From: Gemmatimonadota bacterium
GTDB taxonomy: Bacteria; GCA-2686955
Direction of reading: 5' to 3'
Length of the DNA: 14,095 nt
NCBI GenBank assembly: GCA_002686955.1
Contig: NYZA01000064.1
Location: 1 to 14,095 of the forward strand
The position numbers and the translations under genes are program-made. Position 1 is the first letter of the stretch. Each line of letters begins with the position of its first letter. The notes below the pieces were generated by a model. It searched no databases and had not been told where the DNA came from. It saw nothing but the letters and a program-made list of their open reading frames with translations. Positions 4,383-14,095 of the stretch are shown here, one piece after another.

Positions 4383-7300
4383 GTGAGAGACGCGAGGATC
4401 GTCATCGGATCGAGTCTAGCACTCGTCTCCGGCGCCTGGGCGAGTGATCGGCGTCCCCCGCCTACCCTCCATGTCCCGAGTGAGTACGGGAGCATTCAAG
4501 AAGCGATCGACGCCGCCTCGGCCGGCGATCGTGTGCTCATACAGCCCCGCGCTTACTACGAGACGATCGATTTCCACGGAAAGGCGATCATCGTCACGGG
4601 AATCGCGCCGGAGGACAGATCTGTCGTGGAGCGGACGACACTGCACGGGCTCTCGGCTGGAGCGGTGGTTCAATTCCACTCCGCTGAAGGAAGGTCGTCG
4701 ATTCTGCGCGGGCTCACGATCCCCGGTGGAAACGGGGTGGATGGGAGCTACGGAGGCGGGATCTACTGCCGATCGAGCTCGCCGACTATCGATCACTGCA
4801 TCATACGTAACAACACGGTCTCTCAGAGGGGAGGTGGCGTCTATGCACGACTCGGATTTCCGCGTCTGGAATCCTGCGAGCTGATCCACAATCAGGCCGG
4901 TGTGCGCGGGGGAGGCGTGGAGGTTCGTTTGGGAACGATGGAGCTGATCGACTGCCTGATCCAGGACGGGAAAGCTGGCCAGGGCGGTGCCGTCTCCGTG
5001 CAGCGGGGTGTGCTCGCTATCGAGGGAGGTGAGCTCTCCGACAACCATGCGCCCCAGGGCGGGGGCGGGCTCTATCTGAAGGAGTCGGAGGTTCAACTGG
5101 TGGGCGTCACGATCGACGAGAACCGAGCCGACGGTTCGGGGGGAGGAGTGCTCTGCGTCGATGGCACGGAGTTGACCGCTCTCGACTGCACGATGGCGCA
5201 CAACAGAGCCGTCGAGGAGGGAGGGGCGGTCTTCGTCGAAAGTGGGTCGTCGTTGCGGTTGACCTCGTGCAGCCTGATCGCCAACGAGAGCACCCGGGGG
5301 GATGGAGGGGGCATCGCAACCAGCGGCGCCGACTCGACCCTCCTCGATCGTTCCGAGCTCCGTGGGAATCGGTCGGCGGGCAACGGTGGAGGCCTGTTCT
5401 CCATCGACGGCTCGCTCTCTCTCAGCAATTGCACGATCGTGGAGAACGAATCTCAGGGCCGTGGTGGCGGGCTCTATGTAAATGGCTGCAGGGCAATGAA
5501 CTGCACTTTTGCGGCCAATAGGTCGGAAGCGCTCGGGGGCGCCGCGCACATCGATGGCTCGGCCCAGTTCGTGAATTCGGTGTTCTGGGGCGATTTTCCG
5601 CAGGAGATTCGTGTGCGGACGGGCGCCATCCAGGTGAGTCACTGCAATGTGCAGGGGGGCTGGCCGGGACCCGGGAATCTGGACTCCGATCCTCGATTCC
5701 AGGATAGAAGCTCGGGGAACTACCACATCGAAGACGGGTCCCCCTGCATCGATGCTGGAACCCTCGAGAGTGCCCCCGAGCAGGACCGAGACGGTGACCC
5801 ACGCCCGACCGGAGCCGGCATCGACATCGGCTCCGACGAGTATGTGGGTCCTTGTCGCCTGACCATCGATCTGGAGGATCTGCCGCGGACGGTCCATCGA
5901 GGAGGCGGGTTGCGTCTGAGCCTGGGCATCCGAAACCGATGCGCCGAGCCCGGCGCTTTCGATCTCGCTCTGCTCGTCGGTCCTCGGGGGGGCGAGCGGG
6001 TGCTTCACGAGGGCCGGAGCGTCGAGATCCCGGCGGGCGAACGGATCACGGTCGAATCGGATCTGAGTCTCCCCGAACGCACGCCTCTGGGCGAGTTCGA
6101 GATTTCGTTCGAGCTGTATCTGGGCGGCGCGCTGTTGGCTCGACGTTCAGCCGCGATCTGGGTGCTCGGCGAAGGAGGGGGACTGAGGGTTCCGCTCGAC
6201 TTCCCGAGCATTCAGTCCGCGATCGATGCGGCCAGTGAGGGAGATTCCATATCGGTCTGGCCCGGAACCTACAACGAGACGATCGCATTTCGAGGAAAGA
6301 CGATCACCCTCGCGGGGCTCGCGCCGAGCGACTCGGTCACGGTCGCCGAGACGGTTCTCGACGCGGAGAGCGCCGGCACGGCGGTTCGATTCACGGGCGG
6401 TGAGGGTCCGGCCACAGTGCTGGCGGGTCTCACAATTCGGGGGGGATTGGGGAAGAACCAGCTTCCCGGTGGGGTTCTAATCGCCGGCGCCTCCCCGACC
6501 TTCATCGACTGCGTCATTCGTGAGAATCGCGCGACAGGTCCAGTCTACACGGGCCGCAGTCGAGGCGGCGGCCTTGTCTGCATCAACGCGAACCCGACCC
6601 TGCTCCGGTGCCGAATCGTCAACAACGTCGCCTCAGTCGCGGGTGACGGGGGATCGGGAGAGGGAGGTGGGATCCGTGCCGAATCGTCTCACCTCACGCT
6701 CGTGGCTTGCGTGATTGCCGGCAATACTGCGGGCTCCGAGGCCGCCGACAACGCCTTTGGCGGAGGTCTTCACTGCCTGGAATCCAGCCTACGTCTCGTG
6801 CGCTGCATCGTGAAAGACAATCGCTCCAGAGCCGGATCGGATTGGTTTCCCTTCGCGAGCGGCGGGGGAATCAACGCGACCGATTCCCGACTCTTCCTCT
6901 CCGACTGCGAGATCCGAGGGAATTCCAGCGCGGCGGAACAAGCCACTGGTGGCGGGATCAAGGGGACACGTTGCGAGGGCTGGATCTCGGACTCCGTGAT
7001 CGCCGCCAACAGTGCGTACGGTTCCAACGGTGCGTGGGGCGGGGGGATCAATCTCTACGAAAGCCCCATCGACATCTCCCGCACCATCCTGGAATGGAAC
7101 AGTGCTACCGGGGATGACGGCTCGGGAGGGGGTATGTACATCAGTCGCTCTTGGCCGGTTATTCGTAACTGCAGGATCGAACACAACGAAGTGCCCGCTA
7201 CATCCAGTTTCGGTCGTGGGGGAGGCATCTACTGCAAGGGGTCGGCGCCGGTATTTGCAAACTGTGTCATCGCCAGCAACAAGGGTGACGACGGGCCTGG

Positions 7301-8923: not shown

Positions 8924-11107
8924 TCACGGCACCACCGAGAACTCGAAGCAATCCTCGCTCCACACCTGATCCGGCGCGACTCCGCCCCTCGCGCAGATCT
9001 CATAGGGTCCACCCAATGGTGCGTTCATCGGGATCTCCACGGCGTTCGGGGCGGTTGCGGCGAACCACGGTGGAAGGGTGCCTTCGTAGGGGCCGTCGAA
9101 GGGGTTCCAGGGATGGGGCGCACCTCCGATCAGATAGGCGTCGAACCAACCCTGCGCTGCTCTCGGATCCCCGGTGTCGTTGGCGATCGAGAAGCGCCAG
9201 CGGAGCATTTCTCCTCTCGCCACGCTCGCCGGGGAATCGACGATCGTCACGGTCAAGGGACTCACCATGCTCACGTCCACCCTGAGGTCGAGCTCGTAGA
9301 GATCGCTGAAGCTCAACGCAATGGGGCACTGATGGTCACCGGGCGGCAGCCCCTCGGAGTCGTAGCTCAGAACCACCTCGGCGGAGCTGCTGGGTTGAAG
9401 GGTGAGGGGATCGGGCGCGACCTGGAGCCAGGTGCAATCGGTATCGAAGTCGACAGTGAGCTCATCCTGATCAGAGAAGTTGATGATCTCCCAGACACCT
9501 TCCGCCGTGTCGCCCAGATAGACGGAGTCGGGTTCCTCGACACGGAGCACTCTGTCGAAACGGGTGTCGATCGAATCGGGGCGAAAGAACATCACGTCGG
9601 TCGGGGGCGCGCCGGAGAACATCTCCGACCAAAGGAAACCCGGACCGGCGGTCGGTACCTCGTGGGTAGTGTGCACGAACATCGGTTGGCGATCGAGCAT
9701 CGCATCTTCGATCGAAATGTCGGAGACCTGCGTGCGCTCTGACCAGCCGGCGCTCGATCCCGCGGCACTGATGAGATTGCTCTGCATCCACACCTGAAAG
9801 GAGGGACCACAGATTGTCCAGCCACCGCTCTCGGCGGACACGCTCATGTAGCTCGATATGAAGCCGACATAGAGAAGGTCTGAATTGAGGCCTCGGTATA
9901 TGCCGAGCTGCGGAAGGCCGGTCAGGGAATCGGTCGCGATATTCTCGATGGTCGGCTCGAATTCGCAGCTGTCGGGCAGCCCGGCGAGAACCGCGCGATC
10001 CTGCAAGGGCTCACGGGCTTCTTCGACCCAAGTATTGCCATCGAAATGTCCCATCACGTACTGGGCCGGACCGATCAGTATGCCGTTGTTCTGAAGCCCG
10101 GAGAGGCCGCCGGAAGCGTCTGGAGCCATGTTTTCCTGGTAGACCATATGAACTCGATGGTGGCGGTCGACCACGACCGAAGGCTCGACACACTGCTTTG
10201 ACGGGGCACCGATGGCTACGGTCTGCGCGGGGCTCCAGGTCGCACCGCCGTCGGTCGAACGATGAATGAAGGTATCGAGCAGATTGTCGCGTTCGGTGTC
10301 CCCATTGTAGGCAACATAAAGATCACCGTTGCTCGGATCGGCCGCGCCGCTCGGCAGGAGCCACATATCATTGACACCGGTCGCGACGGTGGTCTGGGTC
10401 CATGTGGCTCCATCATCATCGGAGATATTGGCAACGACATCGGCGTTGCCGTCGCCCTGCTGCGACACGATCATCCACTTGCCGTCGGAGGAGCGATCGA
10501 GGAATGGGAATGTGTTCGCGACAGGGTGCTCGGTCACTTGGAGGCTCGTGCCCCACTCCTGGGTGGTGAAATCGAAGGTGTTGACCCAAACATTGTAGCG
10601 ACTGGGATTGGGATCACCGTCGAGATGGGCGTGGTAGGCCACCATCATGCCGCCATCGAGCTCGTGGCCGCTCGGACGCCCGCTATCGTCCTGCATGTCG
10701 GGCTCGTTGACGGTGCCCTCGAAGGACCAGAAGCCGATGCCGACGATCTCATCCCAGTATCTGGCCGTGACGGCATAGTCGTTTTCGCCGTTCCACTCGT
10801 AGAGGCCGAAGTATGTGTCTTCCGACGGAATGTAGACGGAGTGACGCTCCGGCGGGTAGTCCGTCGGGGATTGCAGGCCGGGAATCCAGCCGCCACGATC
10901 CACGCCCTCCCTGACAATCTGCACCTCGTCGCTGGGTGGAACGGCGAAGTAAGAGTCCGGTTCCTTGCTCAACTCGTTACCGAGGCTCGCATTCGGCACG
11001 AGCACCGACTCGGCTCTGGTGGATGATGACGCTTTTGCCACTCCAGTGATGCTCTATGAGAGGGTGAAGGCGAGCGCCGCGACTGCCAACGCGTGATTCC
11101 TGCTCAT
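8924..11107 (-). CDS. Exported BNR/Asp-box beta-propeller-like protein; in-frame TAG in signal peptide
   Basis: The frame covers 727 codons from ATG 11107, with TAG at codon 18 (11054-11056). Codons 1-17 (MSRNHALAVAALAFTLS) and 19-26 (SITGVAKA) would form one good signal peptide with AKA cleavage if the stop were a sense codon. Intact translation without the leader could begin at GTG 11041. The mature part holds Asp-box motifs (SDDDGATW, STDGGATW) and repeated strand patterns of a BNR/sialidase-like propeller (about 130-420). A BACON-like Ig-fold domain follows (about 540-625; W-E-I-I-N-F, then W-L-Q-V-x-P), then a C-terminal Ig-like domain (about 625-727) ending in ICARGGVAPDQVWSEDCFEF. No sialidase F-R-I-P motif or arginine triad is recognisable, so no enzyme activity is assigned. 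It converges on the aminopeptidase gene and diverges from gap. Confidence 0.85.
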
Positions 11108-11110
11108 GTT

Positions 11111-11120
11111 CTCTCCTCCA
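11111..11120 (-). promoter_or_regulatory. Strong Shine-Dalgarno fixing the BNR gene start at 11107
   Basis: The minus strand reads TGGAGGAGAGAACATG. GGAGG lies seven bases before ATG 11107, among the best ribosome binding sites in the window. It shows that the natural start is upstream of the in-frame TAG rather than at GTG 11041, which has no comparable site. Confidence 0.8.
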
Positions 11121-11259: not shown

Positions 11260-12358
<1,099 letters not shown>

Positions 12359-12387
12359 ACCTTCCTCCAGCGTACCTTCGGTAAACC

Positions 12388-13587
12388 ATGGTCACGAAGA
12401 AGACGATCAGAGATCTGGATCCGCACGGGCGGGTGGTGCTCGTCCGCGTCGATTTCAATGTGCCGCTCGATGGCGGATCGGTCGCGGATGACACACGCAT
12501 TCGGGCGGCACTGCCGACGATTCGGGCGTTGCGAGCAGCCGGCGGTCGCTTGGTGCTCTGTTCACACCTCGGGCGGCCAAAGGGCAAGGTGGTTCCGGAG
12601 ATGAGTCTTCGCCCAGCGGCCGAGCGACTGGCGACACTGATCGAACATCCCGTTGCTTTCTCGGAGAAGTGTGTTGGCGACGATGTTCACGCCGGAGTGG
12701 CGGCGATGGGCGACGGCGATCTCTTGCTGCTGGAGAACCTGCGCTACCACAAAGGGGAAACCGACAACGATCGCGACTTCGCTCAGGCACTGGCGTCGCC
12801 AGCGGAACTCTTCGTAAACGACGCTTTCGGTTCCGCCCATCGAGCGCATGCTTCGACGGCCGGGGTGACGGAACATCTCTCGCCTTGCGTCTCCGGTCTG
12901 CTCCTGGAAAGAGAGCTGCGCTACTTGGAGGGAGCGCTCCAGGCGCCCGCTTCGCCTTTCGTGGTGATTCTGGGTGGCGCAAAGATCAGTGGCAAAATCG
13001 AAGTGCTGACCAATCTGGCCGAGCGTGCCGACACCATTCTCGTGGGTGGTGGGATGGTCTTCACTTTTCTCGCGGCCCGGGGGCTGCCGGTCGGGTCGTC
13101 GCTGCTCGAAATGGAGCGGATCGAGACCGCGAACGAGGTGACGAGCGCGGCCGAGAGCGCGGGCTGCAAACTGCTCCTGCCCGTCGATTTCTTGATCGCT
13201 GACCGCTTCGCCGAGGATGCTTCGACTCGGACAATCGAGGCCACGGGAGGGGTCCCCGAGGGATGGATGGGGCTCGATATCGGCCCGCGCAGCGTCGAGC
13301 TTTTCGCGGTCGAAGTGTCGCGAGCGAGCACCGTAGTCTGGAACGGACCGATGGGGGTCTTCGAGATGGCGCCATTCCGCGAGGGAACCATGGCGTTGGC
13401 GAGGGCGATGGCCGCCGCGACCGATGCCGGCACCACCACGATCGTCGGTGGAGCCGATTCGACGGCCGCCCTCAATCTGGCCAAGCTCGGCGATCGCATG
13501 ACCCATGTATCGACGGGCGGCGGAGCTTCTTTGGAGCTACTCGAGGGCAAGACGCTTCCGGGTGTCGCGGCTCTCGACGACGCATGA
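12388..13587 (+). CDS. pgk: Phosphoglycerate kinase
   Basis: This 399-residue monomeric kinase transfers the acyl phosphate of 1,3-bisphosphoglycerate to ADP. Substrate-binding motifs in the N-terminal domain are complete: VRVDFNVPL with D22 and N24 (19-27), R37, H60-L-G-R-P-K, L-E-N-L-R-Y-H-K-G-E (115-124) and F-V-N-D-A-F-G-S-A-H-R-A-H-A-S (142-156). The nucleotide domain has G-G-A-K-I-S-G-K-I (196-204), N-G-P-M-G-V-F-E (319-326) and G-G-A-D-S-T-A (354-360). The commonly seen S-D-K-I is S-G-K-I here, a substitution that I believe occurs in other bacterial enzymes. No strong Shine-Dalgarno precedes ATG 12388, which fits translation from a shared gap-pgk message. tpiA begins 22 bases downstream. 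Confidence 0.98.
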   Translation: MVTKKTIRDLDPHGRVVLVRVDFNVPLDGGSVADDTRIRAALPTIRALRAAGGRLVLCSHLGRPKGKVVPEMSLRPAAERLATLIEHPVAFSEKCVGDDVHAGVAAMGDGDLLLLENLRYHKGETDNDRDFAQALASPAELFVNDAFGSAHRAHASTAGVTEHLSPCVSGLLLERELRYLEGALQAPASPFVVILGGAKISGKIEVLTNLAERADTILVGGGMVFTFLAARGLPVGSSLLEMERIETANEVTSAAESAGCKLLLPVDFLIADRFAEDASTRTIEATGGVPEGWMGLDIGPRSVELFAVEVSRASTVVWNGPMGVFEMAPFREGTMALARAMAAATDAGTTTIVGGADSTAALNLAKLGDRMTHVSTGGGASLELLEGKTLPGVAALDDA

Positions 13588-13609
13588 GCCGAAAACGAAA
13601 GTAGAAACG

Positions 13610-14095
13610 ATGCGCAGACCCTTCATCGCCGGCAATTGGAAGATGCACAAGACGATCGGAGAGTGCGTCCAGCTCGCGAAGCTCTTGAAGGTGAAGCTCG
13701 CCGACAGCCATGGGGTGGATGTCGCGGTTTGCCCGCCGTTTACCGCGATCGCGGCGACGGTCGAGGTGCTGAGGGGCAGCCGCATCCGAGTGGGGGGCCA
13801 GACCTGCCACGGCGAGGCATCGGGCGCTTTCACCGGCGAGGTCGCGGCCGAGATGCTTGCCAACGCCGGCGCAACCCTTGTGATCTTGGGGCACTCAGAG
13901 AGGCGACAGTACTTCGCCGAGACCGATGAGACGGTGAATGGGCGGTTGGCGGGCGCGTTGCGGGTGGGGTTGCGCCCGATCGTATGCGTCGGCGAGACCT
14001 TGGAGCAGCGCGAAGCAAGCAAGACCTTCGATGTGATCGAGCGCCAAGTTCGCGGAGGGCTGTGCGGCTTCTCCGCGGCCGAGCTCAGTGATCTG
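13610..14095 (+). CDS. tpiA: Triosephosphate isomerase, 3' end beyond window
   Basis: The first 162 codons of tpiA are present; the usual length is about 250, so roughly the last third lies outside the window. The enzyme interconverts dihydroxyacetone phosphate and glyceraldehyde 3-phosphate. It starts MRRPFIAGNWKMHK with N9 and K11 of the active site. The V-G-G-Q-T-C-H segment (61-67) and S-G-A-F-T-G-E-V (71-78) follow, then V-I-L-G-H-S-E-R-R with catalytic H95, and P-I-V-C-V-G-E-T (123-130). The catalytic glutamate (about 165) would fall just past the edge. It is third in the gap-pgk-tpiA run and presumably co-transcribed. No good ribosome binding site is visible before ATG 13610. Confidence 0.97.
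   Translation, partial: MRRPFIAGNWKMHKTIGECVQLAKLLKVKLADSHGVDVAVCPPFTAIAATVEVLRGSRIRVGGQTCHGEASGAFTGEVAAEMLANAGATLVILGHSERRQYFAETDETVNGRLAGALRVGLRPIVCVGETLEQREASKTFDVIERQVRGGLCGFSAAELSDL

Follow-up and report, generated by a model that had tools for sequence, protein, structure and literature searches.

Bacterial nonsense alleles and young pseudogenes are marked by one in-frame stop near the 5' end of a gene whose remainder is intact, by intact copies of the gene elsewhere and by an unchanged genetic code. All of these features are present in the gene described here, which lies on the minus strand of a 14,095-nucleotide stretch of DNA (the window). It differs in that it carries a single lesion so far, and in that the lesion is in a member of a paralogous family. 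Amber recoding, in which UAG is read as Gln or another amino acid, including pyrrolysine, likewise places an in-frame TAG within a long coding frame. However, the genome of the window has RF1, neither a CUA tRNA nor PylS was found in it, and TAG ends about a third of its genes. In programmed or context-dependent stop readthrough, the frame downstream of the stop is open and constrained, as it is in the window, but the window stop is not conserved among the homologues and no readthrough context was seen. In reporter assays in E. coli, as much as 80% readthrough of premature stops has been seen in some contexts during stress, and the residues inserted at TAG are Tyr, Gln or Lys; there TGA is the leakiest stop, and a G after the stop favours readthrough (PMC11126739). 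The BNR/Asp-box sialidase-like proteins (PF13088) resemble the predicted product in its BNR_2 match and in the Asp-box profile matches to solved sialidases, and differ from it in that the C-terminus of the window protein carries other domains.

Is the TAG the result of a recent change in the cell? Or is it a single wrong base in the assembled sequence? It looks like one of these two, and the mutation would be an ordinary one; it does not look like a new reading of the genetic code. Here we investigate the interrupted gene, its relatives and the use of TAG across its genome.

The interrupted leader and the frame behind it

The features of the locus are collected in Table 1. The first-pass annotation had identified the Shine-Dalgarno sequence, the start, the TAG, the residues SITGVAKA and the long open frame from the letters of the window, and its frame and coordinates were correct. 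The hydrophobic segment of the leader, ALAVAALAFTL, has a hydropathy of 2.43, inside the range of the paralogues' intact leaders. Past the TAG the frame has codon statistics of the coding type, and from base composition alone the chance of a run of 705 open codons is about 8e-10. No Rfam family matched at the TAG site. The genes gap, pgk and tpi stand consecutively at 11354-14095 on the plus strand, divergent from the interrupted gene.

Table 1. Features of the interrupted gene, in window coordinates.
Feature	Position	Strand	Remarks
Shine-Dalgarno sequence GGAGG	11115..11119	-	within GGAGGAGAG; direct reading
Start codon ATG	11107-11105	-	then MSRNHALAVAALAFTLS up to the TAG; direct reading
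Signal-peptide coding region	11030..11107	-	26 codons, AKA cleavage motif at the end; cut at codon 18
In-frame amber codon TAG	11054..11056	-	codon 18 of the leader; SITGVAKA follows
GTG, first start candidate past the TAG	11039..11041	-	no usable Shine-Dalgarno sequence, no hydrophobic leader behind it
Open frame past the TAG	8924..11053	-	709 codons and stop TGA (8926-8924); putative BNR/sialidase-like exported protein
BNR_2 (PF13088) match	10139..10594	-	E 1.6e-12
C-terminal domain	8930..9259	-	absent from C159; common to G001:C698 and other proteins of the genome

The closest comparison is with a paralogue in the same genome (C159). Its DNA aligns with the window gene over 1,548 columns at 78% identity with no net indel, and the homology begins about 10 nt upstream of the ATG, in the Shine-Dalgarno region. 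At the stop the window reads CTC TCA TAG AGC, C159 reads CTC TCG TCG AGC, and the nearest homologue in a genome of another genus (G001) reads CTC TCG GCG GGG, so that the intact relatives have Ser (TCG) and Ala (GCG) at the position of the TAG. Since the alignment with C159 is gapless and has TCG at this position, the lesion is one substitution. The first-pass annotation had suggested TTG (Leu) as the codon lost, where the closest paralogue has Ser (TCG) instead.

The protein family and the age of the stop

As judged from its sequence, the product is an exported BNR/sialidase-like protein of a multi-copy family. The family profile matches solved bacterial sialidases around one Asp-box; the predicted structure, with a mean pLDDT of 41, was too poor for use. 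C159 is 78% identical over 490 residues and has a FlgD-like C-terminus, and a second paralogue in the same genome (C207) is 49% identical. Two genomes of the phylum were compared, and the other of these, G001, has four homologues at 53-56% identity. A scan of the genome collection returned homologues only in JALXCG01, which are the same four. These paralogues and homologues make six relatives in all, and every one of them has an intact hydrophobic signal peptide.

The window protein and its paralogue (L002) have the propeller part in common, and their C-termini are wholly different past about residue 511. That of the window protein is of an Ig-like type and that of the paralogue is FlgD-like, an example of C-terminal domain exchange. 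Exported repeat proteins are abundant in the whole genome (G000, 4.3 Mb), with 133 beta-helix and 40 FlgD_ig matches.

Over 510 codons compared between the window gene and C159, dN is 0.146 and dS 0.883, a dN/dS of about 0.17. Purifying selection has acted on the gene throughout nearly the whole period since the two paralogues diverged. Amino-acid relative-rate counts with the nearest outgroup are 28 for the window copy and 26 for C159, and with the other outgroups the window copy is again not faster (18:33, 21:27 and 16:28); significantly faster amino-acid change on the window copy was seen with no outgroup. When nucleotides at codon positions 1 and 2 are counted, the two copies are uneven (65:41) with the nearest outgroup and not uneven with the others. 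No second lesion was found in the window gene besides the TAG. Given the codon make-up of the frame, neutral drift would have produced another stop, with a probability of 95%, by the time 0.043 substitutions per site had accumulated. This value is far below the distance between the paralogues, so the lesion is recent. Constraint, the lack of a consistent acceleration on the branch and the lack of a second lesion together imply that the stop is either young or absent from the cell. Relaxed selection and further lesions, which characterize young pseudogenes, are thus not seen here, as is expected of a recent stop or of an error. The choice of TAG needs no explanation, since 56% of the nonsense substitutions in the codon usage of this frame yield TAG.

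The reading of TAG and explanations for the stop

TAG is a stop codon in this genome. RF1 is present, with a prfA match of 516 bits that is above the cut-off. No tRNA with a CUA anticodon is among the 21 tRNAs found in this 84.5% complete genome, and the best match to PylS reaches 28 bits against a cut-off of 178. TAG terminates 256 of 763 coding frames in a 1.17 Mb sample. There are no in-frame stops in the 41 ABC, 133 beta-helix and 40 FlgD_ig matches of the whole genome (214 together), a count that may miss some because profile matches may break at a stop. Amber recoding, including the use of pyrrolysine, is ruled out by the presence of RF1, by the failure to find a CUA tRNA or PylS and by the use of TAG as a common terminator. 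The first-pass annotation had judged general amber recoding unlikely on the strength of four neighbouring genes that end in TAG; these genes do so, and its judgement holds genome-wide for the release factor, the tRNAs, the terminators and the stop-free family matches. The gene prfB (RF2, L024), flagged for an internal TAG, was rejected as a case of recoding. That TAG is taken as the gene's own terminator, ahead of lysS in the same frame, and the break upstream, on a by-eye reading (CTT TGA C), is taken for the in-frame stop at which RF2 genes usually shift frame.

The TAG probably arose recently, when a change of one nucleotide placed a nonsense codon in one gene of a small paralogous family that encodes exported BNR/sialidase-like proteins. 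Translation would begin at ATG 11107 and end after 17 residues, and the secreted protein would not be produced from the TAG allele. The remainder of the gene would be undecayed because the mutation is young. C159, at least, remains as a close full-length paralogue, so the loss of the window copy would probably be tolerated. We infer that cells truly carry the base, that it silences the gene and that they tolerate this. Genes with several lesions elsewhere in the genome (L086 and L076, below) count towards a nonsense mutation. Against it count the single lesion of the window gene, which leaves no classic decay visible, and the fragmentation of the assembly, which is in 270 contigs and 84.5% complete. 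The lesion would be an ordinary one, with one paralogue of an exported BNR family out of use, or seemingly so, in this lineage.

The main rival is an error in the consensus base of a metagenome assembly, in which case the real gene would have a sense codon and would encode a normal exported protein. It fits the observations nearly as well as a recent nonsense mutation, and we regard it as possible but less likely. A lone substitution in an otherwise intact and constrained gene is the pattern of an isolated base error. If the ancestral codon was TCG, the implied change is C to A, a type known from oxidised sequencing libraries. The contigs of the sister genome (G001; JALXCG01, Gemmatimonadetes bacterium) have a low stated coverage, 1.8 to 2.9, which shows that thin data can underlie genomes of this lineage. 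On the other side, none of the 214 family matches, which together span very approximately 25,000 codons, contains a stop, and stops in leaders are rare (one in about 98). The assembly is therefore not full of such errors, although the bound on the error rate that the 214 matches set, about 1e-3 errors per base, is a weak one. Comparison of the codon with that of relatives, which the first-pass annotation had proposed, returned sense codons; it does not separate a sequence error from a mutation, because the relatives are paralogues or belong to a different genus. Of the explanations that it had listed, two remain standing, the recent nonsense mutation and the error in the assembly. One base in an assembled genome can easily make an intact secreted protein look leaderless, with an internal GTG start, and gene callers may annotate such proteins as cytoplasmic.

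Readthrough of the TAG by a near-cognate tRNA or a suppressor, which would allow some exported protein to be made, possibly conditionally, is unlikely. The frame past the TAG is intact and constrained, as readthrough would have it, but a recent loss accounts for it just as well. None of the six relatives shares the stop, the 21 tRNAs found include none with a CUA anticodon, and no other stop was found in the leaders of the 1.17 Mb sample. The stop is TAG followed by A, rather than the leakier TGA or a stop followed by the favourable G. It is more improbable still that the amber codon exists in the cells, has become fixed in the population and is leaky, such that stop readthrough in the signal peptide, for example under stress, would determine how much of this surface protein is exported.

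Equally remote is translation from GTG 11041, which would give a cytoplasmic protein and leave the 17-codon frame as a leader peptide or translational coupler. This GTG is in frame and 12 nt past the TAG, and bacterial ribosomes can reinitiate after a nearby stop. However, there is no spaced Shine-Dalgarno sequence ahead of it and no hydrophobic segment behind it. The leader is present in all homologues, and homology shows the short upstream frame plainly to be a signal peptide rather than an independent leader. A reversible on/off switch through point mutation at the TAG codon within the population is the least credible explanation, since nothing speaks for it except that the stop falls within the leader of a protein that is secreted or at the surface, and no homopolymer or repeat was seen at the site on inspection by eye, so that no known hypermutable mechanism would switch the codon. 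Readthrough or suppression and phase switching had both been offered by the first-pass annotation. Neither has positive support, nor has the use of GTG 11041. No suppressor tRNA was found, the stop is absent from all six relatives, and the 1.17 Mb sample has no other leader stop.

Other interrupted genes in the genome

How unusual is such a stop? The assembly is fragmented and incomplete, as given above, and leaders and terminators were counted in the 1.17 Mb sample. Of about 98 leader-like frames in that sample, 97 look intact and are led by a Shine-Dalgarno sequence, and only that of the window has a stop. Composition-based scans for stop-interrupted genes returned, for the most part, neighbouring genes that share a frame, and only two loci looked truly interrupted. 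The first (L086; G000:C92:1-6514, minus strand, about 4413-5500) encodes an exported protein with repeats and a beta-helix and has two in-frame TAG codons at positions where, on a by-eye reading, such repeats usually carry Tyr and Trp; it is probably a decayed gene. The second (L076; G000:C48, 2-871, plus strand) encodes an exported protein with Ig-like and FGE-sulfatase parts. It has an in-frame TAA and an apparently truncated FGE domain downstream, and is probably a pseudogene. In addition, the stop of another gene is directly followed by a fragment that is similar to an ABC transporter ATPase in its C-terminal part (L052; G000:C159:1-20000, 17699-17974, minus strand), which suggests a truncated gene or a chimeric assembly.
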